DNA from: Pseudomonadota bacterium
Lineage (GTDB): Bacteria > Pseudomonadota > Gammaproteobacteria > Burkholderiales > Ferrovaceae
Direction: 5' to 3'
NCBI GenBank assembly: GCA_021805445.1
Contig: JAJZFH010000047.1
Coordinates: forward strand, 62,001-126,000
DNA: 64,000 bases
The translations under genes were made by a program, and so were the position numbers. Below the pieces are notes generated by a model. That model had not been told where the DNA came from and did no database searches. It saw nothing but the letters and a program-made list of their open reading frames with translations. Each line of letters begins with the position of its first letter. The stretch's first letter is position 1. Shown here piece after piece: positions 1,340 through 62,485 of this stretch.

Positions 1340-1704
1340 ATACGCTTCGCATCACGACAATGGCTCTGGCTTTGCTCTCTGCCACTGATTTGGCTTTGGC
1401 TGACGGTATGAACAGCATGAACATGAAAGACCTGTCGATGTCGGGCCAGAGGACTGACAAAATGACAGGAAAGGTTCACCATGCAACTGGGATTGTAAAA
1501 AAAATGGATGCATCTGCCGGTCAGGTAACAATTTCGCACGGCCCGATCAACAGCATTCCATGGCCTCCCATGACCATGACATTTGCCGTGAAGGACAAAC
1601 AGATGCTCCGTCAGGTAACCACCGGGGAAAAAATTGATTTCGACCTTGTACAGTCGGGTAAAGACCAATACACCGTGACCAAAATCAGTCCGGCCCATGA
1701 CTGA
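1336..1704 (+). CDS. cusF: CusF-like periplasmic copper/silver-binding protein
   Basis: Small periplasmic metallochaperone that hands Cu(I)/Ag(I) to the CusCBA pump. The 122-residue protein has an N-terminal signal peptide (hydrophobic [14 protein letters not shown], probable cleavage near residue 22) and a Met-rich linker ([13 protein letters not shown]). The C-terminal OB-fold domain carries the CusF metal site as His68, Trp76, Met79 and Met81 ([16 protein letters not shown]); this spacing matches the H-W-M-M ligand set known from E. coli CusF, including the tryptophan that gives a cation-pi contact to the metal. The start ATG overlaps the cusA stop. It is probably the last gene of a cus operon that begins outside the window. 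Confidence 0.93.
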
Positions 1705-1808
1705 TGAAATATATCAACGCTGGGTCGTTACATCAGATACTCAACCACTTTGAGCCGTTTGATTTACTCGCCACTACTTGAATTGTATAAAATTTTTATG
1801 AGTATGGA

Positions 1809-1846
1809 AAACGGGTCAGCAGAAAAACTGCTGACCCGTTTGTTTT
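1809..1846. terminator. Bidirectional rho-independent terminator between cusF and the tRNA genes
   Basis: A perfect 14-bp stem (1809-1822 pairs with 1828-1841) with a 5-base A loop. A T-rich tract (tttgtttt) follows on the + strand and TTTT on the - strand. It lies after cusF (+) and directly after the 3' end of tRNA-Asp (-), so it can end both convergent transcripts. Confidence 0.85.
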
Positions 1847-1848
1847 GC

Positions 1849-1925
1849 TGGCGGAGTGGACGGGACTCGAACCCGCGACCCCCGGCGTGACAGGCCGGTA
1901 TTCTAACCAACTGAACTACCACTCC
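1849..1925 (-). tRNA. tRNA-Asp (GUC)
   Basis: Read on the minus strand, a 77-base cloverleaf: acceptor GGAGTGG pairing with CCACTCC, D arm AGTTCAGTTGGTTAGAA, anticodon loop with GTC, T arm GGGTTCGAGTCCC, and encoded CCA. It closely resembles E. coli tRNA-Asp. It lies 30 bases after tRNA-Val and just before a terminator, so it is probably made as part of a hupB-tRNA-Val-tRNA-Asp transcript. Confidence 0.97.
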
Positions 1926-1955
1926 TTGACTTTTGACTGACGAATGACCCGGTTC

Positions 1956-2031
1956 TGGTGGGTGCTGAGGGGCTCGAACCCCCGACATTCGCCTTGTAAG
2001 GGCGACGCTCTACCAACTGAGCTAAGCACCC
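1956..2031 (-). tRNA. tRNA-Val (UAC)
   Basis: A 76-base minus-strand cloverleaf: acceptor GGGTGCT/AGCACCC, D arm TAGCTCAGTTGGTAGAGC, anticodon loop CTTACAA (anticodon TAC), T arm GGGGGTTCGAGCCCC, discriminator A and encoded CCA. The 5' end lies only 8 bases after the hupB stop codon, which leaves no room for a separate promoter. It is probably processed from the hupB transcript. Confidence 0.97.
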
Positions 2032-2039
2032 AAAGACCG

Positions 2040-2312
2040 CTAGTTTACACTATCCTTGAGCACTTTGCCAGCCCTGAATTTGGGAACTTTGGCGGCTTCG
2101 ATCTGGATGGTCTCCCCAGTGCTGGGGTTACGCCCAGTGCGTGCCGCCCGTTTCCCTACGTGGAACGTCCCAAACCCGACCAGAGAAACCTGCCCTCCTT
2201 TCTTGAGCGTCGACTGAATGGCGCTGATAGCCCCTTCCAGAGCCCGCCCCGCAGCCGCCTTGGAAATATCTGCTGCCTCAGCCATCTGTTCGATCAGTTC
2301 ACTTTTGTTCAC
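2040..2312 (-). CDS. hupB: DNA-binding protein HU
   Basis: Nucleoid protein that binds and bends DNA as a dimer. It has 90 residues, the usual HU length. Seen are [21 protein letters not shown], the [18 protein letters not shown] beta-arm with its intercalating proline, and the C-terminal [12 protein letters not shown]. The start is GTG with an aaggggt ribosome-binding site about 8 bases upstream. The gene lies directly downstream of lon, the usual proteobacterial position, but has its own strong promoter, and it runs on into two tRNA genes. IHF is excluded because the wording matches the homodimeric HU-beta type and ihfA is found elsewhere in the window. Confidence 0.96.
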
Positions 2313-2390
2313 CTGGAATACCCCTTATTGTTAGTTAGGAACAACAACAGACCTCTTCACTCTCATCCTGCACGGGGGATGCTTCAGTTC

Positions 2391-2426
2391 AGGACGCATC
2401 GCCCTTTATAAGGGGCAATGCGTCCT
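2391..2426. repeat. Imperfect palindrome centred on the hupB -10 box
   Basis: Arms 2391-2407 and 2410-2426 (aggacgcat at one end, atgcgtcct at the other, with GCCC/GGGC inside) are nearly perfect reverse complements around the hupB -10 hexamer. There is no T run, so this is not a typical lon terminator. Operator function is inferred from its position only. Confidence 0.7.
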
Positions 2427-2433
2427 CTGTCAA
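2405..2433 (-). promoter_or_regulatory. sigma-70 promoter of hupB
   Basis: On the minus strand TTGACA (2428-2433, perfect -35) and TATAAA (2405-2410, -10) are separated by exactly 17 bases, with the hupB start about 95 bases downstream. A long imperfect palindrome (2391-2426) is centred on the -10 box; see findings. Confidence 0.8.
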
Positions 2434-2459
2434 CCATTTTTCAGTGAGTTGTTACAAAT

Positions 2460-4898
2460 TCAATGCGTGATGCCTACAGGGGGGACTACTGCTTCCCCAT
2501 GGGGCTTCAAGGGAGTCGCCGCCGCAGGAATGGGAGGAAGAGGTTCCCCTGTGCCCGCCTCCGGTAAAGGCACCGGTGCGCGTTCCAATGCCAGGGCCAG
2601 AACCTGATCGATCCAACGTACCGGATGTAATTCCAGGCGCCCCTTGATGTTGTCCGGGATTTCCACCAGATCCTTGCAGTTTTCCTGAGGAATCAAAACG
2701 GTCCGAATCCCCCCCCGATGCGCAGCCAGTAATTTTTCCTTGAGACCACCGATGGCCAACACTTCACCGCGCAATGTGATCTCACCGGTCATGGCCACGT
2801 CGGCCCGCACCGGTATGCCTGTGAGTACGGAAACCATGGCGGTGGTAATGGCCGTCCCCGCACTCGGTCCATCCTTGGGGGTCGCTCCCTCGGGTAAGTG
2901 GATATGAATATCGGATTTTTCATAGAAATCGGGAGGAATGCCCAGGCGTGTGGCACGACTGCGCACCACGCTGAGCGCAGCCTGGATGGATTCCTGCATG
3001 ACCTCCCCCAGTTTCCCGGTGGTGGTCATTTTTCCTTTTCCACTCACCCGAGCCGCCTCGATGGTCAATAATTCCCCCCCTACTTCGGTCCATGCCAAAC
3101 CCGTCACCTGTCCCACCTGATTGGTTTTTTCCGCCACGCCAAAGGTATAGGGACGAACGCCCAGATATTTTTCCAGATTGCGTGAAGTCACCGCCACCTT
3201 TCCGGTTTTCTTTGACAGAAGCAGGTACTTGACCACTTTCCGGCAGATCTTCGCGATTTCGCGATCGAGCGCACGCACGCCCGCCTCCCGTGTGTAGTAT
3301 TGGACGATATAGCGCAGGGCACCCTCTGCCACCGAAATTTCATCTTCCTTCAATCCATTGGCCTTCAACTGTTTAGGCAGGAGATATTGACGCGCAATAT
3401 TGATCTTTTCATCCTCCGTATACCCCGACAGTCGAATCACCTCCATACGATCCAGCAAAGGAGATGGAATGTTCAGAGTATTGGCCGTCGCGACGAACAT
3501 CACATCGGACAGGTCATACTCCACCTCCACATAGTGATCGGTAAAGGTATGATTCTGTTCAGGATCCAGAACCTCGAGCAAAGCCGAGGAAGGATCTCCC
3601 CGGTAATCCTGCCCCATCTTGTCCACTTCATCCAGAAGAAACAAAGGATTGCGCACTGCCACCTTGGTCAGACTCTGCAGGATTTTTCCGGGCATGGCTC
3701 CGATATAGGTCCGACGATGTCCGCGGATCTCCGCTTCATCCCGCACCCCTCCCAACGCCATGCGTACAAATTTTCGATTGGTGGCGCGTGCGATGGATTT
3801 TCCCAAAGAAGTTTTTCCGACTCCCGGAGGCCCCACCAAACACAGGATGGGTGCCTTGACCTTATCCACCCGTGCCTGGACGGCCAGATATTCGACGATC
3901 CGTTCCTTGACTTTATCCAACCCGAAATGATCCTGGTCCAATACCTTTTCGCAGTTTTCCAAGTCAGAACTGACCCGGGTTTTCTTTTTCCAGGGCAGAC
4001 CCACCAAGGTGTCGATGTAGTTACGCACCACCGTGGCCTCTGCCGACATGGGCGACATCAAACGCAATTTCTTGAGTTCCGATTCGGCCTTGGACTGAGC
4101 TTCCTTGGACATGTGTGCCGTACGGATCTTTTTTTCCAGGTCCTCGATATCCGCACCATCCTCGTTGTCTCCCAACTCCTTCTGGATGGCCTTGACCTGT
4201 TCGTTGAGGTAGTATTCACGCTGGCTTTTTTCCATCTGGCGTTTGACGCGCCCCCGGATGCGCTTTTCCACCTGCAGGATGTCGATTTCACTTTCCAACA
4301 GTGAAAGCAATTGTTCGATACGCTTACGGACATCGAACAGGGCCAGGATATCCTGTTTTTGTTCCAGTTTCAGGGGAACATGGGTAGCAACCGTATCTGC
4401 CAGTCGTCCCGCCTCTTCGATACTGGAAAAAGAACTCAATACCTCCTGAGGAATCTTCTTGTTCAGTTTGACGAATTGCTCAAACTGTCCCAGCAAGGTA
4501 CGACGCAAGGCTTCCAGTTCCGGATGCTCACCGGAGGATTCCTGGATGGGAGTCGCCACTCCAAGAAAATGGGATTGATTGGGTTCAGTGACCTCACTCA
4601 CCGTCACCCGCTGGACCCCCTCCACCAGAACCTTGACCGTACCATCCGGCAGTTTCAGCAATTGCAGGATCGTGGCAATGCTCCCCACGTCATATAACTC
4701 GTCCACCCCCGGATCATCATTGGAGGCAGATTTCTGTGCCACCAGCAGGATGTTCTTGCCCGCTTCCATGGCCAGTTCCAAAGCGCGAATGGATTTGAGG
4801 CGGCCCACAAAGAGAGGAATGACCATATGGGGAAAAACAACCACATCCCGCAGGGGGAGCAGAGGTAATTGCACGGATTCCTGAGTGACTGTACTCAT
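2460..4898 (-). CDS. lon: ATP-dependent Lon protease
   Basis: Cytoplasmic AAA+ serine protease that degrades misfolded and short-lived regulatory proteins. It has 812 residues (E. coli 784), with the extra length mostly in a Pro/Ala-rich C-terminal tail. Order: N-terminal substrate-binding LON domain (about 10-205), coiled-coil section (205-290), AAA+ domain with Walker A GPPGVGKT at 356-363 and Walker B FLLDEVDK, then the protease domain with the catalytic serine in PKDGPSAG (about residue 680) and the catalytic lysine in [14 protein letters not shown]. It follows clpX, clpP and tig on the same strand but has its own sigma-32-type promoter. The ATG has a GAGG 8 bases upstream. Confidence 0.98.
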
Positions 4899-25470: not shown

Positions 25471-26152
25471 CCGGGGACGGGGTCTGGCCATCGTCATGAT
25501 GGTGCTCTTTCATGGATGCTATGACGCCACCTACTTCGGATTTGCCCATTTCTCCCTGCTGGAATCATACTTCTGGACCACTTGGCGTACCCTGATCGTC
25601 ACGCTCTTCGTGTTCTTTTCCGGGATGAGCCTGGCCCTCAGCGCCCACCATCCGATCCAGCGGAGGCGCCGCCGTCTCTTTCGACTGGGCGTGAGTGCCC
25701 TGCTGGTCAGTGGGGTAACCCATGTGTTGTTCGGTGTACGCTGGATCTATTTCGGCGTTCTGCACTTCTACTGGCTCGCCACCCTCATCAGCCGCCCCTT
25801 GCTCGGATTGCGCGGAAAATTGCTGCCCCTGGGGCTGTTGGCGCTGGTGGCCGGGCAATGGGGAGTGACGGCCATGGACCCACGCTGGCTCAACTGGATC
25901 GGACTCGCTGCCCATAAACCGTCTACAGAGGATTATGCCCCGCTCCTGCCCTGGATAGGGGTCCTGTGGTTGGGCATGTGGACGGGGATCCAGCCCTGGT
26001 CATCCCGTCCGCAAAGCGATCCTGCTTCCTGCTCGGTGCCCGACCGGGGGATTCAATGGATGGGACGCCATGGCTTGATTCTTTATCTCGTACATCAACC
26101 CATACTTTTTGCGTTGTTTGAACTGACCCGGCGAATTTACCCCGTTCGTTGA
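25448..26152 (+). CDS. DUF1624/HGSNAT-like multi-pass membrane protein (putative acyltransferase)
   Basis: 234 residues with about six hydrophobic segments. The opening YLDRGRGLAIVMMVLFHGCYDATYFG resembles the small bacterial DUF1624 family, which is related to the catalytic part of heparan-alpha-glucosaminide N-acetyltransferase. The histidine in the first segment (LFHGCYD) and the final GRHGLILYLVHQPILF motif match that family. Its substrate is unknown. The likely start is TTG at 25448, overlapping gspC by 23 bases, which implies coupled expression; an internal ATG is possible. Its 3' end overlaps the convergent permease gene by 16 bases. Confidence 0.75.
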   Translation: MPRLAYLDRGRGLAIVMMVLFHGCYDATYFGFAHFSLLESYFWTTWRTLIVTLFVFFSGMSLALSAHHPIQRRRRRLFRLGVSALLVSGVTHVLFGVRWIYFGVLHFYWLATLISRPLLGLRGKLLPLGLLALVAGQWGVTAMDPRWLNWIGLAAHKPSTEDYAPLLPWIGVLWLGMWTGIQPWSSRPQSDPASCSVPDRGIQWMGRHGLILYLVHQPILFALFELTRRIYPVR

Positions 26153-27108
26153 CCCTGGACTACTTCGCCTTCGTCTCCCACGGGCGAAGATCGCCCCGCC
26201 CGGCGACTGTTCAACCACCCGATAAAAGCCAAAAAAGCGAGGCCGGAACCGATCAGTAAAATCCCGCCCACCTCTGACCGATGAAAAGACTCCCCCGTCA
26301 TCCAGCGCGAGGACAGGATAGCCACCACGGGCGTACCCAACACCGACAGACTGGCTTCCCAGGCAGGGACCCGGTCCAGGATATAGAGCCATAACCACCA
26401 GCACAGTGCCGTACTGGCCAGAGACATGAAGGCCAGAATGCCTCCGTAGGTCCAGGTCCAGTGCGTCGCCCGCTCCGGAATCAGAAGGGCCGCACACACC
26501 AGAGGAATGGCCCCCAACGCCATTTGCCAGGCCGTCAGATTGAGCAGGTCCACGTCATGATGCTGGCGCAACCGCTTGACCAACAGGGTTCCCACCGCCC
26601 AGCAAAAGGCCGCCAGCAGCCCCAGACATTTGCTGATCAAACTGGTATGCATTTCCCAGGGTTCGATGATGAGCAGCAACCCGCCCAGGGTCAGGAGAGC
26701 CGCAATCCATTGGGCTCCCTTGATCGGTTCGCGCAGCACCAGACCGGAGAGAAGGAGTGTCCAGACGGGCATGGTAAAGATCAATACCGCCGTTTTTCCG
26801 GGGCCCCCGGTCACCAGCGCCCAGGTTTGGAAAAGCATGAAGCCGAAAACCTGAACGAGCCCGATGAGCAGTGTTTCCCTGGGCAATTGCCAACGCCAGG
26901 GACGTCCCGTCAGGGGAAGCAGTGCGAGCAGAGCCAGCCCCCCCAAAACAGAACGTTGCGCCGCAAAATGAAGCGGTCCGGCAAAACCCAACCCTTCCTT
27001 GGCTGCCACCCAACTGTACCCCCAGGTAAGGGACAGCACCACCAGGCCCAATATCGGACCCCAACCACGAGAATGCTTCAAATATGGATCATCCCTTGGC
27101 GCGCTCAT
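26137..27108 (-). CDS. DMT superfamily (EamA) permease
   Basis: Inner-membrane transporter of the drug/metabolite superfamily. It has 323 residues and about ten transmembrane helices in two EamA repeats (first from LGLVVLSLTWGYSWVAAKEGL, second from LGLLAAFCWAVGTLLVKRL), ending in WLNSRRAGRSS. The N-terminal TWGYSWVAAKEGL box is typical of the YedA/RhtA-like group that exports amino acids or metabolites, but the substrate cannot be read from sequence. Its 5' end overlaps the DUF1641 gene by 20 bases. Confidence 0.85.
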   Translation of the reverse strand: MSAPRDDPYLKHSRGWGPILGLVVLSLTWGYSWVAAKEGLGFAGPLHFAAQRSVLGGLALLALLPLTGRPWRWQLPRETLLIGLVQVFGFMLFQTWALVTGGPGKTAVLIFTMPVWTLLLSGLVLREPIKGAQWIAALLTLGGLLLIIEPWEMHTSLISKCLGLLAAFCWAVGTLLVKRLRQHHDVDLLNLTAWQMALGAIPLVCAALLIPERATHWTWTYGGILAFMSLASTALCWWLWLYILDRVPAWEASLSVLGTPVVAILSSRWMTGESFHRSEVGGILLIGSGLAFLAFIGWLNSRRAGRSSPVGDEGEVVQGQRTG

Positions 27109-27694
27109 CCCGCATCTGCTGGCTCAAGGCCGTCAGAAATTGCAGGGCCTGTTGGGTTTCCCGTTGAGTCATGAGGTTCCACAACCCCCCCAATCCCCCC
27201 CCGGACGGAGTCTGTTTGACCGTACGGGCAGCCTCCAGACCATCGAGCAAACCGACCACCCGGTCCAGTTTATCGAGCAGCGCAGGCAGACTCTGGACGA
27301 TTCTTTCCAAAGCACCGGTGGCTTCCAGACGCTCCAGCATATGCAGCAATCGCCCGCCGCCACCCCGATGGAAACGGTCGAGCATGGACAACCCCTCTCC
27401 CACCGTTTCTGCCAGTCGCCCCACCATGTCGTCGGTCAGGGCATCCTGAAATGCCTGGTAGACTCGCGCCAATTGGGAAATCCTGTCCAGATCCCCGTTA
27501 TCGACCATGTCGGCAAGAACCGGAATGGCCCGGGTAAGACCGGAGCGCTGGACCCGATCCATCAGATCCATCCCCTCGCTGCAAAAACCCGCGAGACGAC
27601 TGACCATTTCGTCGCTCAGGGCGTCCCGAACCGCAGTCACCAGATGTTCTGCTTCTGCGGCTGAAAAATCTTCTGATTCCTTGAGTTCTGTCAT
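27089..27694 (-). CDS. DUF1641 family protein (SQR-associated)
   Basis: 201 residues, cytoplasmic and largely helical. It contains repeated amphipathic elements built on a D-x-M-x-x-R-L pattern (LSDEMVSRLAGF, LTDDMVGRLAETVGE) and a Gly-rich GGGGLGGLW-type tail, typical of DUF1641 proteins found beside sulfide:quinone oxidoreductase-like genes. Biochemical role is not established. Three ATGs occur in tandem (27700, 27697, 27694); the third has AGAGG at 7 bases and is chosen. It follows the SQR-like gene by about 16 bases and overlaps the permease gene. Confidence 0.8.
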   Translation of the reverse strand: MTELKESEDFSAAEAEHLVTAVRDALSDEMVSRLAGFCSEGMDLMDRVQRSGLTRAIPVLADMVDNGDLDRISQLARVYQAFQDALTDDMVGRLAETVGEGLSMLDRFHRGGGGRLLHMLERLEATGALERIVQSLPALLDKLDRVVGLLDGLEAARTVKQTPSGGGLGGLWNLMTQRETQQALQFLTALSQQMRDERAKG

Positions 27695-27710
27695 CATCAT
27701 GCCTCTTTGC

Positions 27711-28844
27711 TCAAAGCAAACCACGGGCAGAAACCCAGTAGAGTTTATTGTAGGCTGTCTTGAACCAGTGCACCGCCTTGGTAGGAGGCTGGGGAGAAGG
27801 AGGGGTCTGGTAGTTGAACATGGCATAGGTCGCACGATCCCTGCCCGTCTCGATGAAACAGAAGACCTTGCCATCATATTCACGTACCGGCGCCCCTATC
27901 TTGATCAGGGCAGCGATATTCTCCCCCAGGGTGTCCGCCTGAAAGTGAGCCGTGGAACCGGCCTTGCTGATGGGAATATTGGTGGTATCCCCCAGCACGA
28001 AAACATTCTCGCGGCCTTCCATGCTGAGTTTTCCCCGGTGGGTCGGGATCCAGCCATTCTTTCCCAGATCGTTCCTTTCCAGGACTTCCATTCCGCGATG
28101 AGCAGGGATGGTGATCAGCAAATCATAAGAGATCTCAGTCCCCTCCTCACTATGCACCACTTTTTTCTCGCCATCCACTTCCTTCATGTTGAAAAAGGTT
28201 TCATACGTGATGCCCCGCCGATCCATTTCCGGCGCGGCCCATTTGGCCACGTTTTCAAGACTGTGCACGCGGTTGATGGGGTAGGTGTAATGCAGTTGAA
28301 CCTTGTCGAGAAGACCGCGATCCTTGAAATAATCGTGCAGCATGAAGGTGATTTCGAGGGGAGCCATGGGGCATTTGTGGGGAAGGCCCACGGCGATCAC
28401 CACTTTTCCACCTTCAAAGGACTGCAAGCGCTTGAACATCTTGAGCGCCGAGGCTTCCGTGTAAAAGGTTTCGGCATGCTCGGCCAGACCCGGAATTTCT
28501 TCCGGATACATGCGCGAACCGGTGGCAATCACCAGAATATCGTAGGCATGGATTCGCCCACTGCGCGTTCTGACGTGTTGATCATCGAGGTGGAACTCTT
28601 CCACCGGATCCACATGAAAATGGATGCTCGATTCCAGCAAACCGGCCTGATCCCGGTACAACTCATCGGGGGTCATGCGTCCCACAGCCAGATACAATAA
28701 ACCCGGCTGATACATGTGCTTGTCCGAAGCCGACAGCATCGTGATTTGCGCCTTGCCCTCCTTCAATTCCGGAACCAGACGACGCGCCAGATTATTTGCC
28801 AGGATCGTCCCCCCCATTCCGCCACCGACAATCAAGATCTTCAT
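27711..28844 (-). CDS. SQR-like FAD-dependent pyridine nucleotide-disulfide oxidoreductase
   Basis: Membrane-peripheral flavoprotein of the sulfide:quinone oxidoreductase / flavocytochrome c sulfide dehydrogenase family. It has 377 residues. The N-terminal FAD-binding Rossmann motif is ILIVGGGMGG; the second nucleotide-type motif LVIATGSRMYPEEIPG sits near 104-119, and the FAD-contact VFVLGDTTNIPISKAG at 281-296. Two cysteines, Cys158 (PHKCPMAP) and Cys329 (VFCFIETG), match the pair that carries the polysulfide chain in SQR; the third cysteine of type I SQR (near 128) is missing. It probably oxidises sulfide or a related sulfur compound, reducing quinone. The upstream open frame overlaps tusA and was trimmed to the ATG with GGAGGATAC before it. 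Confidence 0.85.
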   Translation of the reverse strand: MKILIVGGGMGGTILANNLARRLVPELKEGKAQITMLSASDKHMYQPGLLYLAVGRMTPDELYRDQAGLLESSIHFHVDPVEEFHLDDQHVRTRSGRIHAYDILVIATGSRMYPEEIPGLAEHAETFYTEASALKMFKRLQSFEGGKVVIAVGLPHKCPMAPLEITFMLHDYFKDRGLLDKVQLHYTYPINRVHSLENVAKWAAPEMDRRGITYETFFNMKEVDGEKKVVHSEEGTEISYDLLITIPAHRGMEVLERNDLGKNGWIPTHRGKLSMEGRENVFVLGDTTNIPISKAGSTAHFQADTLGENIAALIKIGAPVREYDGKVFCFIETGRDRATYAMFNYQTPPSPQPPTKAVHWFKTAYNKLYWVSARGLL

Positions 28845-28887
28845 GTATCCTCCCGCCTTAAAGTATGTTGGAAACCGTGCGGCCCGG

Positions 28888-29118
28888 TTATTTGGTCTTG
28901 CGCACCACGATATGCCAGACACCATCATTTTCTGTCGTGGAGACATAGTCATGACCCACCCGGCGCACCCACTCGGGAATATCGTCGGCCGACCCCTTAT
29001 CCGTGGACAACACTTCCAACTCATCCCCAACCTGACTGTGCTTCAGGGCCACAATCAGTTCCATCAGCGGACCCGGACAAAAACTCCCTCTGCCATCCAC
29101 GATTTTTCTTTCCGTCAT
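28888..29118 (-). CDS. tusA: TusA-family sulfur carrier protein
   Basis: Small cytoplasmic sulfur-transfer protein (76 residues). The family motif CPGP, with its persulfide-bearing cysteine, is at residues 14-17 (GSFCPGPLMELIVAL), and the second half carries the usual GDELEVLSTDKGSADDIPEWVRRVGH wording. Located between the DsrE-like and SQR-like genes, it more likely carries sulfane sulfur in sulfur oxidation than serving tRNA thiolation, where TusA normally works with TusBCDE. The function in this locus is inferred from context. Confidence 0.9.
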   Translation of the reverse strand: MTERKIVDGRGSFCPGPLMELIVALKHSQVGDELEVLSTDKGSADDIPEWVRRVGHDYVSTTENDGVWHIVVRKTK

Positions 29119-29178
29119 AGTGCCCCCTCGAATCAGTTATTCAACTTGGTCAGATTCAGAACAGAGATGATCCCCGGA

Positions 29179-29571
29179 TCAAAAAGTCCAGACCTGTCCA
29201 TCCTGAACCTCGGTCAGCAATCTGCTCAAACCGGTGGCTTCCCCCAGATAGTCTTCCAGTTGTTCGGAACCGATGCCCAACACATCCATGGCCATGGAAC
29301 AAGGATAGAGACGGGCACCCCCCAACTCTATGGCCTGTTCGAACAACATTTTGAATTCCGGGACATTCCTGGCTTTCATCAGATCGCCCATGGGTCCTTC
29401 GTGCGGCGCCTCTGCCGTCGATCCTTTGATAAAATGGGGCAGAGCATTCATGGACAGAAAGACCCGGACTTCCTGTCCACTCACCGCCGCCACCGAGGCC
29501 AGCATGGCCGCCGCCTGCAAACGTTCCAAGGTGCCCGAGATCACCACGACACAGATTTTCTGACCGACCAT
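29179..29571 (-). CDS. DsrE/F-like sulfur-relay family protein
   Basis: 130 residues, DsrE/PrmC-like alpha/beta fold. Seen are VVVISGTLERLQAAAMLASVAA, SGQEVRVFLSMNALPHFIKG, and a conserved cysteine in ARLYPCSMAMDVLG, the probable persulfide carrier as in DsrE2-type peroxiredoxin-like proteins. AAGGAG stands 6 bases before the chosen ATG; the longer frame runs into folC. First gene of a dsrE-tusA-sqr-DUF1641 set. DsrE2 proteins with TusA are known persulfide donors in sulfur oxidisers; this assignment is by family and context. Confidence 0.85.
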   Translation of the reverse strand: MVGQKICVVVISGTLERLQAAAMLASVAAVSGQEVRVFLSMNALPHFIKGSTAEAPHEGPMGDLMKARNVPEFKMLFEQAIELGGARLYPCSMAMDVLGIGSEQLEDYLGEATGLSRLLTEVQDGQVWTF

Positions 29572-29603
29572 TTTTTTCTCCTTGATCCGCATTCTCCCAT
29601 GCC

Positions 29604-30941
29604 TCAGGGAGAGTTCTGTCTCATTTCGGGCAAGCCTCCATGCAACGCCAGGATCTTGCCCACCGTCACAAAGGACCCGCACACCACCACCCGGTCTTCC
29701 GCGACTGCCGCCGCACAAGCCGCGCCATAGGCCTGCTCGGGAGACGGATGCCATTGCACGGTCCCCCGTACCCCCCGGAGCGCCGGTTCCATCTCTTCCC
29801 GACAGGCCCCACGCTCCTCATGAAGGTCGGCCAGATACCAGTCATCCACCTGGGTATCCAGGGCCCGGACCACCCCCACCCGATCCTTGTCACGCAGCAT
29901 GCCCAGAACCAGACGCGTCCGTCCGGCGCAGGGCACCTCTCCCAGATTATGCGCCAGTTCCTGAGCCGCTTGTGGATTATGGGCCACATCCAGAATTACC
30001 TGAGGCGAAAAACGCAAGGTCTGAAAACGCCCAGACAGCACCACATCTGCGATTCCGCGTCGGCCCTGTTCCGGCGTCACCCGCACAGCCGTGCGCTGAA
30101 GCGCTGCCAGTGCCAGCGCGGCATTGCGGTACTGAAAATCTCCAGACAAGGAAGGAGCAGGCAGGTCGGACCACGTCTGGTGAGGCATGTTCAGGGTCCA
30201 AGTCCCTTGCGCCTGTCTTTCCACCGTAAAATCCCGCCCCCATAACCAAAGCGGGGTTTCCAGTTCAGCCGCGCGCGCCAACAGGCTGAGGGGTGGGTCC
30301 GGATCGGCACAGAGCGCAGGAACCCCTGCGCGAAAAATCCCTGCCTTTTCAGCGCCGATCGCTTCACGGGTGGAACCCAGCCACGTTTCATGGTCCAGGG
30401 CGATTCCAGTCAGCAGGGATACCGTCGGCTCGAACAGATTGACGGCGTCCAGACGCCCCCCCAACCCCACCTCCAGCACTGCCACGTCCACCGGGGTGCG
30501 TTGAAAAATATCCACCGCCGCCAGGGTACCGAATTCAAAAGGCGTCAGACTGATCCCCTGGCGGGCCGTCTCGATCCGGGCAAAGGCAGCACAGAGTTGG
30601 GCGTCGGAAACGGGGATCCCATCCACGACCACTCGCTCGTTGTAACGCACCAGATGAGGAGAGGTATAGGTTCCCACCCGATAGCCCGCAGCCTTCAGAG
30701 TTGCCCTCAAATAAGCGCAAGTGGACCCCTTGCCGTTGGTGCCCGCCACCATCAGAATCGGAAAGGCGGGAAAAAGACCGAGCAGGTCGCGTACCCGCCC
30801 GACCCGTTCCAAGCCCAGGTCCATGGAACGCGGGTGAATACGATCCAGGTAGGCCAGCCAGTCGGCCAGCGTCATCGGCAGGGAGTTTCCTTCCCGGCGC
30901 ATTGGCCCCCGTTGCGCAATTCCGATATCCGATGAGTCCAT
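29604..30941 (-). CDS. folC: Bifunctional folylpolyglutamate / dihydrofolate synthase
   Basis: ATP-dependent Mur-ligase-family enzyme that adds glutamate to dihydropteroate or folates. It has 445 residues. The ATP loop GTNGKGST is near residues 67-74, followed by GYRVGTYTSPHLVRYNERV, the conserved LEVGLGGRLDAVN, and the C-terminal LDVAHNPQAAQELA. AGGTGA lies just before the chosen ATG. It is not next to accD, its usual partner, but precedes the sulfur genes. Supply of polyglutamylated tetrahydrofolate fits a serine-cycle organism, though this link is only inference. Confidence 0.95.
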   Translation of the reverse strand: MDSSDIGIAQRGPMRREGNSLPMTLADWLAYLDRIHPRSMDLGLERVGRVRDLLGLFPAFPILMVAGTNGKGSTCAYLRATLKAAGYRVGTYTSPHLVRYNERVVVDGIPVSDAQLCAAFARIETARQGISLTPFEFGTLAAVDIFQRTPVDVAVLEVGLGGRLDAVNLFEPTVSLLTGIALDHETWLGSTREAIGAEKAGIFRAGVPALCADPDPPLSLLARAAELETPLWLWGRDFTVERQAQGTWTLNMPHQTWSDLPAPSLSGDFQYRNAALALAALQRTAVRVTPEQGRRGIADVVLSGRFQTLRFSPQVILDVAHNPQAAQELAHNLGEVPCAGRTRLVLGMLRDKDRVGVVRALDTQVDDWYLADLHEERGACREEMEPALRGVRGTVQWHPSPEQAYGAACAAAVAEDRVVVCGSFVTVGKILALHGGLPEMRQNSP

Positions 30942-31023
30942 CCGTCACCTGTCGCAAAACCAAAACCAGAGGGAGGAATTATCGCTTGCTTCGCCCCCCC
31001 CGGGAACCCCCTTCCCCGAAATT

Positions 31024-32307
31024 TCAACGAATGAGAAGCGCACGAAAATCATTGACATTGGTGAGGGTAGGCCCCGTGATCACCAGATCGTCCAACGCCG
31101 CAAAGAAACCATAACCATCATTGTTGGCCAGATAGTCGGCCGCCTTCAGGCCCAGACGTTCCGCGCGCGCCCAGGTATCCGGCATCACCAGGGCCCCGGC
31201 GTTATCCTCGGTTCCATCGATGCCATCCGTATCGCCTGCCAGCGCGAACACCCCTGGTTCGCCCCGCAGGGCCTGGACCAATGCCAGCAGGAACTCGACG
31301 TTTCGCCCTCCGCGCCCCTTGCCTCGTACGGTCACCGTGGTCTCCCCTCCCGACAACAGGACACAGGGACATGGGACCGGTTGTCCATGACGCCTCACCT
31401 GGTGGGCAATCCCCGCCATGACCATCGCCACTTCACGCGCCTCGCCTTCGATACTGTCGCCCAAGATCAGGGGTGTGACACCGGCCACCCGTGCGACTGC
31501 CGCAGCCGCCTCGAGGGAATGCTGGGGGGTGGCGATGAGATGGGTCAAAGTACGTGCCAAACGAACATCCCCCGGTTTGGGCGTTTCCTCCCGAGCCGCG
31601 CAGAGGTGGGCATAGGCCCGTGTCTGGTCCTGCAGTCCGTATTTTTCCACGATGGCGCGCGCCTCGGCAAAGGTGGTGGGATCCGCCACCGTGGGTCCGG
31701 AAGCAATCACGGCGGGGTCATCGCCGGGCACGTCGGAAATCAACAGGGTGACCACATTGGCGGGGTGACACGCCAGGGCCAAACGCCCGCCCTTGAGACT
31801 TGAAAGATGCTTGCGTACGCAATTCATCTCGGTAATGGTGGCGCCACTCCTGAGCAGGCTCCGGTTCATGGTCTGCTTGTCCGCCAGAGTCAACCCGGGG
31901 GCCGGTGCTGCCAACAAGGCAGAGCCTCCGCCAGAGATCAGACAAATCACCAGATCTTCCGCCGTCAGTCCCTGAACGGCTTCGAGGATCCGCCGACCTG
32001 CCCGTTCTCCAGCCTCGTCTGGCACTGGATGGGCGGCTTCGAGCACTTCGATGGAACGGGTGGGTACCTTATGACCATAACGTGTCACCACCACGCCACT
32101 CAAGGCACCCGTCCAATGCTGTTCCAGCGCTTGAGCCATGGCCCCGGCCGCTTTGCCGGCCCCCACCACCACCGTACGCCCGCGTGGAAACGCTGGCAGA
32201 AATGAGGGGAGTACCCGGTGAGGGTCCGCTGCAGCCACTGCAGAGTCGAAAAGGGAACGCAGGAACATGCGTTCATTTGCGAAAGAAGAGATGGTATTAT
32301 TTTTCAT
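31024..32307 (-). CDS. gckA: Glycerate 2-kinase (MOFRL family)
   Basis: Phosphorylates D-glycerate to 2-phosphoglycerate; in the serine cycle this follows hydroxypyruvate reductase. It has 427 residues. The N-terminal DUF4147 domain contains VVVGAGKAAGAMAQALE and LISGGGSALLAAPAPGLTLADK; the C-terminal MOFRL domain contains LLSGGETTVTVRGKGRGGRN and ALAGDTDGIDGTEDNAGA. It is divergent from the glyA operon and separated by 99 bases. The alternative name hydroxypyruvate reductase (TtuD) is sometimes given to this family, but the next-door hprA makes the kinase role the natural reading. Confidence 0.92.
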   Translation of the reverse strand: MKNNTISSFANERMFLRSLFDSAVAAADPHRVLPSFLPAFPRGRTVVVGAGKAAGAMAQALEQHWTGALSGVVVTRYGHKVPTRSIEVLEAAHPVPDEAGERAGRRILEAVQGLTAEDLVICLISGGGSALLAAPAPGLTLADKQTMNRSLLRSGATITEMNCVRKHLSSLKGGRLALACHPANVVTLLISDVPGDDPAVIASGPTVADPTTFAEARAIVEKYGLQDQTRAYAHLCAAREETPKPGDVRLARTLTHLIATPQHSLEAAAAVARVAGVTPLILGDSIEGEAREVAMVMAGIAHQVRRHGQPVPCPCVLLSGGETTVTVRGKGRGGRNVEFLLALVQALRGEPGVFALAGDTDGIDGTEDNAGALVMPDTWARAERLGLKAADYLANNDGYGFFAALDDLVITGPTLTNVNDFRALLIR

Positions 32308-32324
32308 AACAGGCGTTATAAATT

Positions 32325-32353
32325 TTCACAGAAGGGTCAAAAGTCGCTAGAAT
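32325..32353 (+). promoter_or_regulatory. sigma-70 promoter of the glyA serine-cycle operon
   Basis: TTCACA (32325-32330) and TAGAAT (32348-32353) are 17 bases apart, each one mismatch from consensus. They lie 54 bases before glyA in the 99-base divergent spacer with gckA. Confidence 0.72.
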
Positions 32354-32406
32354 AGAGGCTTGGCGCTTAAAATGATAGTCATTGTTCATCTCTTGGAGGG
32401 TTTGTC

Positions 32407-33654
32407 GTGTTTGATTCCAGAAAGTTGCTTGCCGATACGGACCCGGAATTATGGGAAGGCATCCAGAAAGAGTACCGTCGGCAGGAAGACCATATCGAAT
32501 TGATTGCATCGGAAAACTATACCAGCCCGGCAGTCCTGCAGGCGCAAGGTTCCGTTCTGACCAATAAATACGCAGAGGGCTACCCCGGCAAGCGTTACTA
32601 TGGCGGCTGCGAATTTGTCGATGTGGTCGAACAACTGGCCATCGATCGCGTGAAACAGCTCTTTGGGGCCGAATACGCCAATGTCCAGCCCCATTCCGGC
32701 TCCCAGGCCAATGCCGCCGTGTACATGGCCATGCTCCAACCGGGCGATACGATTCTCGGCATGTCCCTGGCCCATGGCGGTCACCTGACCCATGGGGCTT
32801 CCGTCAATTTCAGCGGCAAACTCTACAAGTCGGTGAGTTATGGTCTTCATCCCGATACAGAGCGGATCGACTACGATGAAGTGGAACGCCTGGCTCAGGA
32901 ACATAAACCCAAGATGATCGTGGCAGGCGCCTCGGCCTATTCCATGGTCATCGATTGGGCTCGTTTTCGTGCCATCGCCGATACCGTGGGCGCCTATCTC
33001 ATGGTCGACATGGCCCACTATGCCGGTCTCATCGCTGCGGGCGAATACCCCAGCCCCGTCGGTATTGCCCACTTCGTCACCTCCACCACCCACAAGACCT
33101 TGCGCGGCCCGCGCGGGGGAATCATCCTGTCCTCCGCCGAGTTCGAAAAACCCATCAACTCGATGATTTTCCCGGGCATTCAAGGGGGCCCCCTGATGCA
33201 TGTCATCGCAGCCAAGGCCACCGCCTTCAATGAGGCGCTCAAACCCGAATTCAAATCCTACCAAAAGCGCGTCAAAGCCAATGCACAAGCCATGGCAGAA
33301 ACCTTCATCGAACGCGGTTTGCGCATCGTTTCCGGGGGCACGGAAAGCCATCTCTTCCTGATGGACCTGCGGGCCCGTCAGATCACCGGCAAGGCCGCCG
33401 AAGCGCTGCTGGGACGGGCCAATATCACGGTCAACAAGAATGCGATCCCCAATGATCCGGAAAAACCCTTCGTCACCTCCGGAATCAGGATCGGCTCGCC
33501 GGCCCTGACCACCCGTGGTTTTGGTCACAACGAGGCACGCAAAGTGTCCCACCTGATCAGTGACCTGCTCGAGGCTCCGGAGGATGAAAGCGTACTGCAA
33601 CGTGTTCTCGCAGAAGTGGGAACACTCTGTCAGCGTCACCCCGTCTATCGCTAA
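32407..33654 (+). CDS. glyA: Serine hydroxymethyltransferase
   Basis: PLP enzyme that joins glycine and methylene-tetrahydrofolate to serine, the entry of C1 units into the serine cycle. It has 415 residues. The substrate-binding region reads [17 protein letters not shown], and the PLP lysine lies in [14 protein letters not shown] (about residue 226). The start is GTG with GGAGG about 8 bases upstream. First gene of a co-directional run glyA-sgaA-hprA-mtkA-mtkB-mcl. It could also serve housekeeping glycine synthesis; a second copy elsewhere cannot be excluded. Confidence 0.97.
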
Positions 33655-33683
33655 CCGCTCAAGCATTCGTTTCAGGAGTCATC

Positions 33684-34880
33684 ATGGCAGGTCATAATTT
33701 TCTCTTCGTTCCGGGCCCTTCCAACGTTCCCAACCGCGTTCTGCGCGCCATGGCGGTCCCCATGGAGGATCATCGCTCGGTCAAATTTCCCGCTCTGACG
33801 CAGGAGATCCTGGCTGGCTTGAAAAGGATCTTCAAGACAGAGTCCGCCGCTCCCATCGTCTTTCCTTCCTCCGGGACGGGATGCTGGGAAGCGGCGCTGA
33901 CCAACTGTCTGAATCCCGGAGACCGGATTCTGGCTTCCCGCTTCGGACAATTCAGTCACCTCTGGTGTGACATGGGAAGACGCCTGGGCTTCGACATGAA
34001 CATCATCGAAGTGGAATGGGGCGAAGGCGCTCCGGCCGAACGCTATCGAAGTGCATTGGAGGCCGATGCGCAGCATCAGATCAAGGCGGTACTGGTCTGC
34101 CAAAACGAAACCGCCACCGGCGTAACCAGCGATGTTGCGGCAATCCGCCGGGTGCTGGACGATTTGGGTCACCCTGCCCTGCTCTTCGTGGATTCAGTCA
34201 GTGCGCTGGCCAGTATCGACTTTCGCATGGATGAATGGAAGGTCGATGTCTGCGTCGCCGGTTCCCAAAAAGGTCTGATGTTGCCGGCCGGCATGGGAAT
34301 CACCTGCGTCAGCCAGAAAGCCCTGCAAGCCGCACAAAACAGCCGTCATCCCCGTTGTTACTTCGATTATTCCGACATGGTCAGGAGCAATGGCACCGGC
34401 TACTTCCCGTATACGCCCTCCATCCCCATGCTCCACGGTCTGCGCGAAGCCCTGGTCATGCTGGAAGAAGAAGGACTCGAAAACGTCTTCGCCCGTCATC
34501 ATTATCTGGCCGAGGGGGTCCGGGCCGCCGTTACCCAGGGATGGAAATTATCCCTATGTGCCAAAGCGCCCCAGTGGTACTCGGACTCGGTTTCGGCCAT
34601 CGTGGTTCCCGCCGGGTTCAACGCTGCCGAAGTCATCGAACGAGCCTTCCGCCGTTATAATCTGGCGCTGGGCACCGGGCTTTCGAAAGTGGCTGGCAAG
34701 GTTTTCCGTATCGGACACCTGGGCGACCTCAACGAGGTGATGCTGATGGGGGCCATTGCGGGTGCCGAGATGGCCATGCTGGACTGTGGCATCCCTGTCA
34801 CCCCCGGAAGCGGTGTGGCCGCTGCCGCCCAATTCTGGTGCGCCCATGAAGCCCCGGTTGGCCTGGGAGTGAGGGTATGA
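33684..34880 (+). CDS. sgaA: Serine-glyoxylate aminotransferase
   Basis: PLP class-V aminotransferase turning serine plus glyoxylate into hydroxypyruvate plus glycine, the second step of the serine cycle. It has 398 residues. The N-terminal LFVPGPSNVPNRVLRAM is characteristic, and the PLP lysine lies in GSQKGLMLPAGMG (near residue 200), after DSVSALASIDFRMDEW. It starts 29 bases after glyA with GGAG before the ATG, and its stop overlaps hprA (ATGA). Alanine-glyoxylate and phosphoserine aminotransferases are relatives, but the neighbourhood favours SGAT. Confidence 0.95.
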   Translation: MAGHNFLFVPGPSNVPNRVLRAMAVPMEDHRSVKFPALTQEILAGLKRIFKTESAAPIVFPSSGTGCWEAALTNCLNPGDRILASRFGQFSHLWCDMGRRLGFDMNIIEVEWGEGAPAERYRSALEADAQHQIKAVLVCQNETATGVTSDVAAIRRVLDDLGHPALLFVDSVSALASIDFRMDEWKVDVCVAGSQKGLMLPAGMGITCVSQKALQAAQNSRHPRCYFDYSDMVRSNGTGYFPYTPSIPMLHGLREALVMLEEEGLENVFARHHYLAEGVRAAVTQGWKLSLCAKAPQWYSDSVSAIVVPAGFNAAEVIERAFRRYNLALGTGLSKVAGKVFRIGHLGDLNEVMLMGAIAGAEMAMLDCGIPVTPGSGVAAAAQFWCAHEAPVGLGVRV

Positions 34881-61835: not shown

Positions 61836-62485
61836 GGCTGCCTCGTCACCGATCCCTGCGGGGGCACGGCCAGAACGGCGGACGACAAGGGAATCCTGTT
61901 TTCTTCAGGGGGCTTACCGCCAGGAAGGATTTGCACCGGTTCTGTCTGAACGGGCGCGGGCTCCAGAGGAGGAAGCGCATTGGAAAACGAGGATCGTGGG
62001 GATGCCGTATGCACCAGGGTCATCACTTCCGGGGGGTTCTTTCCCGAAAAAACGCCGGTTTGCCAACCCACCATGCCGGCCGTCCCCAGGATGACCACGA
62101 TCAGCAGCATGCCCGCCGAGAACGCGCGCGGCACCTGTTTCCAAAGAGTCGAAAACTCCTGACCCCAGGACCGATGTTTCCTGGGCAGAATGGGCACGGA
62201 AAGCAGCGGCGTGAGATGCGGGGGGCGTGCATCCTGTCGTTCCTGCTCGAGTTGGGCCAGCAAGGCTTCGGGAGATTCTCCCAACTGACGGGCATAAGTA
62301 CGCACCAGGGCACGCACGAACATGATGTCGGGCAAGGCGTCAAAGTCCCCCGCTTCCAGCAACTGCAACTGGTGCGAGGAAAAACGCAATCGTTGAACCA
62401 TATCCTGAAGTGTGAGCCCCTCCCGCTCGCGCAATGCGATGAGGCGTCGCCCTACGTTGAAGGGCTCGCCGGTTTCCTCATTCAT
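61832..62485 (-). CDS. rodZ: RodZ-like cell-shape protein, short form
   Basis: Helix-turn-helix bitopic protein that links MreB to the membrane. It has 217 residues, against about 337 in E. coli. The cytoplasmic HTH_25 domain ([24 protein letters not shown]...[15 protein letters not shown]) is intact, with a membrane segment at about 125-145 ([17 protein letters not shown]). The periplasmic part is only a Pro-rich tail and lacks the usual DUF4115 beta domain. No frameshift was seen; the stop overlaps ispG normally. pilF, which often stands between rlmN and rodZ, is absent. Confidence 0.9.

Follow-up and report, generated by a model that had tools for sequence, protein, structure and literature searches.

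A conserved four-gene locus encodes a putative sulfide:quinone reductase, two sulfur carriers and a DUF1641-family tandem-repeat protein

Most descriptions of sulfide:quinone reductases (SQRs) present them as monotopic enzymes with independent access to quinone. The locus described here, in which a gene for an SQR-like flavoprotein follows those for two sulfur carriers and precedes that for a DUF1641-family protein, raises the question of what the four products might accomplish together and, in particular, what the last of them might contribute. It lies within a stretch of 64,000 nucleotides (the window; positions 62,001 to 126,000 of contig JAJZFH010000047.1) from a bacterium related to Ferrovum, a group of acidophiles that oxidise iron. 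The four minus-strand open reading frames that the first-pass annotation had grouped as a compact set at 27089-29571 were all confirmed in place:

29179..29571, minus strand: dsrE, a DsrE/DsrF-like sulfur carrier of 130 amino acids with an invariant Cys 91 (codon 29299-29301)
28888..29118, minus strand: tusA, a TusA-family sulfur carrier of 76 amino acids with an invariant Cys 14 (codon 29077-29079)
27711..28844, minus strand: SQR-like flavoprotein of 377 amino acids with Cys 158 (codon 28371-28373) and Cys 329 (codon 27858-27860)
27089..27697, minus strand: DUF1641-family repeat protein of 202 amino acids, predicted to be all-helical and proposed to couple the SQR to quinone and the membrane

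The intergenic gaps, taken in the order dsrE-tusA-sqr-DUF1641, are 60, 43 and 13 nucleotides, and a purine-rich, ribosome-binding-like sequence lies upstream of each reading frame. Promoter and terminator scans gave nothing above shuffled sequence, and Rfam yielded no match within 26000-32500. The gene order is intact in 78 of the 80 closest SQR loci, more often than chance would give. The two incomplete cases are L031, where a contig edge precedes the DUF gene, and L085, in which no dsrE was found. Farther afield, the same order is complete in 13 of the 16 regions retrieved. Beyond the four genes, no neighbour family (frames of at least 110 amino acids) is found in more than nine of the 80 loci. 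The EamA, MOFRL, SHMT and aminotransferase neighbours are seen only in Ferrovum-type loci, and folC in these and in L031. A TusA-SQR-DUF1641 set is also present on haloarchaeal plasmids; a plasmid search with the DUF protein of the window gave no match.

The first-pass annotation had placed the set in an organism with C1 metabolism. The kinship with Ferrovum, the two RuBisCO large chains encoded in the genome and the search for PQQ alcohol dehydrogenase, the C1 enzyme looked for, which found none over its cut-off, do not support this. Nearby genes for SHMT, a class-V aminotransferase and a MOFRL-family protein would fit glycolate salvage in an autotroph.

TusA and DsrE proteins belong to families of known sulfur carriers. 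The TusA of the locus matches Pfam PF01206 (E 4.6e-21), and its Cys 14, positioned within a CPGP sequence (a CPxP-type active-cysteine motif), is kept in 81 of 81 aligned proteins. The DsrE-like protein matches both PF13686 (E 3.3e-14, 53.5 bits) and PF02635 (E 5.6e-7, 30.2 bits) above their cut-offs. With the DsrE2 subtype model NF047629 it reaches 22 of the 210 bits needed, which is below the NCBIfam cut-off. Its Cys 91 is present in all 80 aligned proteins, and Cys 7 in 33 of them. A second TusA is encoded elsewhere in the same genome.

The flavoprotein contains just two cysteines, as had been reported at first pass. Both Cys 158 and Cys 329 are found in 81 of 81 aligned SQR-like proteins, although only 55 of these have exactly two cysteines. 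The absence of a third, to which attention had also been drawn, is no puzzle because these two are the sole cysteine columns widely common to the 81 proteins. They align with a cysteine pair of human SQOR, which we take to be the catalytic cysteines of that enzyme. Human SQOR is likewise the best match in a search of the PDB (E 4.5e-33), followed by 3h8i (1.7e-23), named there an "NADH oxidase" but presumably the Acidianus SQR, and by 3hyv, a sulfide-quinone reductase (1.8e-14). Weaker are flavocytochrome c (7e-10), 4nwz (4.8e-9), which we assume to be an NDH-2, YjlD (6.4e-7) and the "NADH dehydrogenase-like" entries (2.6e-7 and weaker). As judged by these matches, the flavoprotein is nearer to the SQRs than to NDH-2, and a clustering with NADH dehydrogenases, named at the outset as part of the result that would speak against the reading, was not seen. 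A search of its own genome returned a single strong SQR match and one other at 15.4 bits.

In the SQR tree the protein groups with haloarchaeal proteins, apart from a type II-containing clade, the characterised type III enzymes of Caldivirga and Methylacidiphilum having been left out. The nearest NCBIfam model is that of a type III selenoprotein subtype (NF049943; 319.5 bits versus a cut-off of 525), a match that cannot decide the SQR type because proteins of the type II clade score 204-276 bits with the same model (275.7 for one type II protein). Type II enzymes such as human SQOR and the SQR of the Staphylococcus cst operon resemble the flavoprotein in the cysteine pair and in overall sequence; they nevertheless form a separate clade, and the Staphylococcus partners are CstA and CstB rather than TusA or a DUF1641 protein. 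One relative, in Chlorohelix, is listed with no DUF1641 gene next to it, a point against the unit proposed below.

Aromatic residues flank Cys 329 and are also found near the C-terminus. The quinone sites of known SQRs, in the portions of the literature available, lie in these same regions. The idea that DUF1641-partnered SQRs are missing a C-terminal membrane helix was rejected, as the ends are similarly aromatic and basic (YWxxARGLL versus YWxxMLKGLM). The tail following Tyr 345 measures 32-33 residues in DUF1641-partnered SQRs (37 in Natronorubrum) versus 40-47 in type II-clade proteins. With its type II-like aromatic-basic end, the SQR may therefore reach the membrane unaided.

It is improbable that the flavoprotein is instead a different flavoenzyme working through a disulfide, such as a reductase of polysulfide or an oxidase of the persulfides on TusA/DsrE, in either direction. 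Such an assignment would accommodate its failure to pass any NCBIfam cut-off and the loss of the second cysteine in two related DUF1641-paired proteins. It fits less well with the invariance of both cysteines across the alignment, their correspondence to the SQOR pair, the location of the aromatic residues and the behavior of the counterpart in Methylacidiphilum, which the available text describes as upregulated by sulfide (PMC10205796).

The fourth protein is built from a 60-residue tandem repeat, a feature missed at first pass and new here. The modules are:

27446..27625, minus strand: repeat module 1, residues 25-84, from self-comparison
27266..27445, minus strand: repeat module 2, residues 85-144, with 22 of 60 residues identical to module 1

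The best self-offset of the protein is 60 residues, with a score of 102 versus at most 41 in 50 shuffles. The same period is found in 80 of 80 close proteins, each scoring above all 50 of its own shuffles; among distant family members, L142 is an exception with a repeat of 64 residues. The number of modules runs from one (L147) through two (the window protein) and three (L033) to as many as four (L129), and at least 14 changes between two and three are required on the tree, while the SQR changes little. The number of modules therefore probably sets the length of a scaffold or the count of its docking sites.

The assignment of this protein to DUF1641 holds in part. The window protein itself has no match to Pfam DUF1641 (PF07849), yet the model hits the C-terminal part of 54 among 95 relatives at E <= 1 (best E 1.1e-7). 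In L033 the match covers residues 219-256 of 265, which locates the equivalent segment here:

27092..27232, minus strand: C-terminal segment equivalent to the Pfam DUF1641 core; limits approximate, placed from the L033 match, the window protein itself being without one

When an alignment headed by the window protein (A2) is compared with a haloarchaeal protein annotated as DUF1641, the hhalign probability is 95.7 (E 8.5e-9), and a further haloarchaeal DUF1641 profile match has an E of 4.6e-9. These matches span approximately 150 columns, the repeat included. A Comamonas DUF1641 protein is unmatched by the family profiles (probability 0.5 and 0.6), which therefore do not link up the entire Pfam family. 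The profiles also find YjlC and the "NDH-2 membrane coupling protein" (E 1.6e-7 and 3.8e-7 in one search; 1.3e-4 and 3.0e-4, and 3.9e-4 and 9.3e-4, in others), the YjlC match covering profile positions 51-127 plus 39-81. A six-sequence profile reaches ForE1 (E 0.0025) and, weakly, HucM (E 0.0047; 0.034 in another search). By profile homology, then, the protein is a member of the DUF1641 family in a wide sense that takes in YjlC-, ForE- and HucM-like proteins.

An AlphaFold model of the whole protein was poor (pLDDT 51.5), and that of the last 128 residues fair (pLDDT 78.4, pTM 0.40). A Foldseek search of the PDB with this 128-residue core gave nothing significant, the sole row having an E of 6.0. 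VIA, with two chains compared, returned ForE1 as its only row, a weak match (Z 4.1, rmsd 18.8, 91 aligned). Such a result is not evidence for a new fold.

The first-pass annotation had stated that DUF1641 proteins are without a known biochemical role. This no longer holds. The Bacillus subtilis ForCE system, as far as its available description goes, consists of a dehydrogenase with a DUF1641 partner, ForE, that mediates the use of menaquinone without a predicted transmembrane helix. It differs from the present case in that ForCE is a molybdenum enzyme, not a flavoprotein, and in the distance of the sequence match. YjlC and HucM are solved relatives. In PDB entries 9pxk and 9snk, with molecule names "YjlC", "NDH-2 membrane coupling protein" and "NADH dehydrogenase-like protein YjlD", a flavoprotein of the same superfamily as the SQR has as its partner a protein related to the DUF1641 repeat protein, but the enzyme is an NADH dehydrogenase and the YjlC chains are 140 and 176 residues long. 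A literature search for YjlC, by title and the start of the abstract, found no paper on the NDH-2 complex. HucM, of the Huc [NiFe] hydrogenase, is described in the text at hand as an elongated helical scaffold that forms a hydrophobic tube for quinone leading to the membrane; its partner is a hydrogenase, and that text mentions no repeat.

For the other three genes the closest parallel is the type III SQR-TusA-DsrE2 operon of Methylacidiphilum fumariolicum SolV (MFUM_v2_0219-21), in which the same gene types lie side by side. It is reported to be upregulated approximately 1.7-fold with sulfide, which is converted to elemental sulfur (PMC10205796). The comparison covers the gene types, and the portion of that paper available mentions no DUF1641 gene.

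On the basis of these comparisons, the four genes are read as a portable sulfide-oxidation unit, with a probability of roughly 0.6, in which an SQR would pass persulfide to TusA and DsrE and electrons to quinone via the DUF1641 subunit. The sulfide-to-persulfide relay suggested at first pass remains the best reading of the sequences, given the SQOR-aligned pair, the invariant carrier cysteines and the sulfide-induced Methylacidiphilum operon. The FAD enzyme would bind sulfide at Cys 158 and Cys 329 and build a persulfide or short polysulfide there, as suggested by the conserved cysteines and the homology to SQRs, with two electrons passing to the FAD. The sulfane sulfur would then be handed to Cys 14 of TusA and Cys 91 of DsrE in the cytoplasm, in keeping with the invariance of these residues and the known roles of their families. 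Toxic sulfide would thus probably be turned into carrier-bound sulfur, detoxified but kept available and not burnt to sulfate; in profile searches of the genome, SoxB was not found and no DsrA scored above the cut-off. The DUF1641 protein may aid the transfer of electrons from the FAD to quinone, as YjlC, ForE and HucM would for NDH-2, formate dehydrogenase and the Huc hydrogenase, respectively. By analogy with these homologues, it would be a helical subunit with no cofactor of its own, anchoring a peripheral dehydrogenase at the membrane and steering quinone towards it.

Alternatively, the repeat protein could be a docking scaffold, unrelated to quinone, that recruits TusA and DsrE to the SQR, with module number setting how many carriers it binds. 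TusA, and in most cases DsrE, accompanies it in almost all loci seen, and module number varies beside a little-changing SQR, as this arrangement would predict, but we regard such a role as unlikely. Solved structures or names connect DUF1641-family proteins with NDH-2, formate dehydrogenase and hydrogenase, none of which needs a sulfur carrier, and SQR-like/DUF1641 pairs without a TusA listed within 4 kb occur in Comamonas endophytica and in Natronorubrum, the plasmid gene table being incomplete. The repeat also draws Pfam AbiEi_4 matches, in 33 of the 43 members with three modules (best E 2.7e-7) and in six of 35 others. Even together with the missing Pfam DUF1641 match and the unmatched Comamonas protein, this lends very little credence to an unrelated helical or DNA-binding regulator with a short DUF1641-like tail shared by chance, since the YjlC and haloarchaeal matches extend well into the protein, the latter through the repeat, and a regulator would hardly lie a few nucleotides behind sqr in nearly every genome seen.

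If the proposed sulfide-oxidation unit is correct, the SQRs of many environmental proteobacteria and of some haloarchaea would have a dedicated quinone-coupling partner, drawn from the family whose members assist NDH-2, formate dehydrogenase and an atmospheric-hydrogen hydrogenase, and DUF1641 would be a general plug-in for quinone access. A more tentative suggestion is that the repeat protein acts as a modular ruler, its 60-residue three-helix units being gained or lost whole by in-frame tandem duplication of 180 bp. In lengths of one to four units across species, it might bridge the membrane and the sulfide oxidase as a scaffold or path for quinone, or determine how many SQRs can dock. Natural members with up to four modules provide ready material for an experiment on the effect of scaffold length. 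The passages on DUF1641 consulted, mostly table entries, describe no complex with an SQR. In one such table, from Ignicoccus, the DUF1641 protein Iho_0672 adjoins the flavoprotein Iho_0673, and both are raised in co-culture.

The four-gene set proposed in the first-pass annotation is real. All of its members lie on the minus strand, arranged dsrE-tusA-SQR-like-DUF1641-like, as follows:

29179-29571, minus strand: dsrE, supported by a Pfam match
28888-29118, minus strand: tusA, supported by a Pfam match
27711-28844, minus strand: SQR-like flavoprotein, two cysteines only
27089-27697, minus strand: DUF1641-like gene, the fourth in the order

The intergenic gaps are short, and each gene is preceded by a ribosome-binding-like sequence. 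The genome (68 contigs, 1.97 Mb) has Ferrovum as its closest named kin, and the SQR is 97% identical to those of a Ferrovum sp. MAG and of F. myxofaciens P3G. An EamA transporter gene (26137-27108), a neighbor found only in Ferrovum-type loci, begins within the final 20 nt of the DUF1641 gene.

The four genes form a discrete conserved unit. A profile search with the SQR alignment against contigs of 84,980 species yielded 373 relatives, the best 80 of which were taken, and the sample of loci is thus biased toward close SQRs. In 78 of these 80 all four genes occur together and in order, the incomplete loci being L031, at a contig edge, and L085, in which no dsrE was found. Beyond the four genes, no family of frames of at least 110 aa lies near more than nine of the 80 loci. 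When a profile of three-module DUF proteins (see below for the repeat) was run against 369 genomes of the class, matches were observed in 29, including the window's genome, and in 26 of the resulting 30 loci, the window's own included, this SQR type is directly beside the DUF gene. The remaining loci are L130 and L151, which are contig ends, L155, with another flavoprotein, and L156, with no flavoprotein. Wider regions from 16 of the 28 other class-search genomes contain the complete set in 13; L170 and L173 are without a detected dsrE, and L174 has a flavoprotein and the DUF gene only. A strong DUF match (E of 1.7e-58 or better) was present in 11 of 61 genomes picked by kinship, including seven of the eight of the genus. 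Farther afield, haloarchaeal plasmids of Halobaculum and Halomicrobium carry TusA-SQR-DUF1641, Haloarcula carries TusA-SQR and a 132-aa hypothetical protein on which the C-terminal DUF profile gave no detection, and Chlorohelix carries TusA-SQR-rhodanese with no DUF1641 among the listed genes. The SQR, TusA, DsrE and DUF1641 families are already known, and an SQR-TusA-DsrE operon has been published. A literature search, with most subscription journals and all preprints outside its scope, gave no account of a DUF1641-SQR unit and no description of the 60-residue module series.

On the basis of its sequence, the flavoprotein is an SQR. Among PDB sequences it matches human SQOR at an E-value of 4.5e-33 and flavocytochrome c at 7e-10, whereas the likeness to NADH dehydrogenases, which the first-pass annotation had named as the opposing outcome, reaches 2.6e-7 at best. 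The window's protein has exactly two cysteines, as had been noted, and these, Cys 158 and Cys 329, align with the cysteine pair of human SQOR and are each kept in 81 of 81 aligned proteins. Fifty-five of the 81 have exactly two; extras occur in 26, with no extra-cysteine column common to 30%. Also invariant are Cys 14 of TusA (81/81) and Cys 91 of DsrE (80/80); Cys 7 of DsrE is not conserved (33/80). Phe 328 and Phe 330 flank Cys 329, and Trp 360/Phe 361 lie near the C-terminus, all at least 97% conserved. The quinone site described for a type VI SQR is formed by the residues that flank the cysteine on either side, together with a Phe/Trp of the C-terminal helix (PMC9666304). Given the conserved cysteine pair, the likeness to SQOR and the placement of these aromatics, the enzyme looks competent for both sulfide and quinone. 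In a 32-protein tree it groups with proteins from Halobaculum, Halomicrobium, Haloarcula, Comamonas/G254 and Chlorohelix (support 98/97), apart from a clade that includes the Staphylococcus Sqr annotated as type II; the branches are long and the details unsure. The SQR would oxidize sulfide, and the sulfur would then pass to TusA and DsrE. A type III SQR-TusA-DsrE2 operon of Methylacidiphilum rises ∼1.7-fold with sulfide (PMC10205796).

Two SQR-like flavoproteins, at L110 (genome G254, 1462-3087) and L114 (a Comamonas endophytica plasmid, 2682-4345), keep the first cysteine, have alanine for the second, and are each accompanied by a short DUF1641 protein. At L114 the genes listed within 4 kb include no TusA, and the L110 locus is too short to judge. 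These two are probably not sulfide oxidases. On plasmids of Paracoccus, Agrobacterium, Salinivibrio and Cereibacter (L119, L120, L123, L125), SQOR-clade proteins of 434-449 aa are directly followed by a small gene, either DUF5368 or hypothetical, which may encode a further partner subunit of SQR.

Searches of the window's genome gave no SoxB and, for DsrA, no match over the cut-off, so that sulfide detoxification and sulfur recovery are likelier than lithotrophy. The C1 metabolism attributed earlier to the organism found no support: two RuBisCO large chains are encoded, and no PQQ alcohol dehydrogenase scored over the cut-off in this genome. Near the set (31024-34880) lie, side by side, genes for a MOFRL/DUF4147 protein, which we take to be glycerate kinase, SHMT and a class-V aminotransferase, neighbors that would fit glycolate salvage rather than methylotrophy. 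Cytochrome bd genes adjoin the SQR of one cited account.

The DUF1641 label of the fourth protein stands only in the wide sense, through matches of family profiles and C-terminal segments, but the window's protein itself gave no match to Pfam DUF1641. C-terminal segments of the family matched that model at E ≤ 1 in 54 of 95. An annotated haloarchaeal DUF1641 protein was matched over ∼150 columns by the profile of the two-module alignment, which the window's protein heads (8.5e-9), and by the three-module profile (4.6e-9), and a Comamonas DUF1641 protein was unmatched by the two-module and C-terminal profiles. Pfam DUF1641 was detected in one of 299 genomes of a phylum sample, and the repeat profile in 29 of the 369 class genomes; although the two samples differ, this branch seems to escape the Pfam model. 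Longer proteins with a DUF1641-like tail (306- and 451-residue frames) occur at L155/L174 (G466) and L156 (G516), beside a distant flavoprotein (31% to an Alicyclobacillus one) or with no SQR within the short locus, and may have other partners.

Among all PDB sequences, the best matches of the family profiles were YjlC, a partner of NDH-2, and the 'NDH-2 membrane coupling protein', with E-values of 3.9e-4 and 9.3e-4, 1.3e-4 and 3.0e-4, and, for the 95-sequence profile, 1.6e-7 and 3.8e-7. HucM, the Huc hydrogenase partner, followed at 0.034 with the last, and in none of the searches did an unrelated entry score better than 0.12. A profile of six SQR neighbors, of which one is hypothetical and five are either annotated as DUF1641 or matched by its Pfam model, matched ForE1 at 0.0025, HucM at 0.0047 and YjlC at 0.005. 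These profile comparisons show that the fourth protein is homologous to YjlC. At the level of fold, the model of the last 128 residues gave no significant PDB match in Foldseek, and of two chains compared by VIA the one listed, ForE1, aligned weakly (Z 4.1, rmsd 18.8, 91 residues). ForE, a DUF1641 partner of formate dehydrogenase, mediates menaquinone use, and co-purified menaquinone is down to 1.6% without it (PMC8808070). HucM forms a helical scaffold as a tetramer, and menaquinone has been proposed to travel 94 Å from the membrane through its hydrophobic tube (PMC10017518). DUF1641 genes also accompany a Huc-type hydrogenase operon (PMC12976888) and adjoin a flavoprotein gene in Ignicoccus (PMC3149612). 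Since the partners have in common that they are peripheral dehydrogenases in need of access to quinone, the fourth gene is read as encoding a putative quinone/membrane-coupling subunit of the SQR.

The fourth protein is built of 60-residue modules, two in the window's 202-aa protein. In all 80 close proteins (the window's and 79 others) self-comparison scores best at an offset of exactly 60 residues, above all 50 shuffles of each; the one exception, L142 (1426-2238), belongs to the more distant loci and repeats at 64. Across 200 modules, Asp 1, Arg 10, Asp 23, Arg 27 and Gly 44 of the consensus are 98-99% conserved. The helix-modelled stretches are amphipathic, at ∼100-110° per residue, and three helices per unit are predicted in both a poor whole-protein model and a better C-terminal one (pLDDT 78.4). 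Judged by length, and with two contig-truncated proteins excluded, 35 of 78 close loci have two modules and 43 have three. A quick tree built from the set's three other proteins requires at least 14 changes between these states, and well-supported branches force at least 10 of them. Module number may have an effect on function. Among the more distant loci, L129 and L131 encode four modules (starts at 30, 90, 150 and 210), and others encode short proteins (frames of 116-177 aa) with one recognizable module or none. DNA identity over 138 adjacent-module pairs has a median of 57% (49% in the window) and is highest at L130 (180/180 bp), L132 (96%), and L136 and L036 (91%), which indicates in-frame duplication of entire 180-bp units, in some cases recent. 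The identical pair, within 1489-2205 of L130, is either a very recent duplication or, as this locus is at a contig end, an assembly artefact. Of the 43 three-module proteins, 33 also match the Pfam antitoxin segment AbiEi_4 (best E 2.7e-7), perhaps as a helical look-alike.
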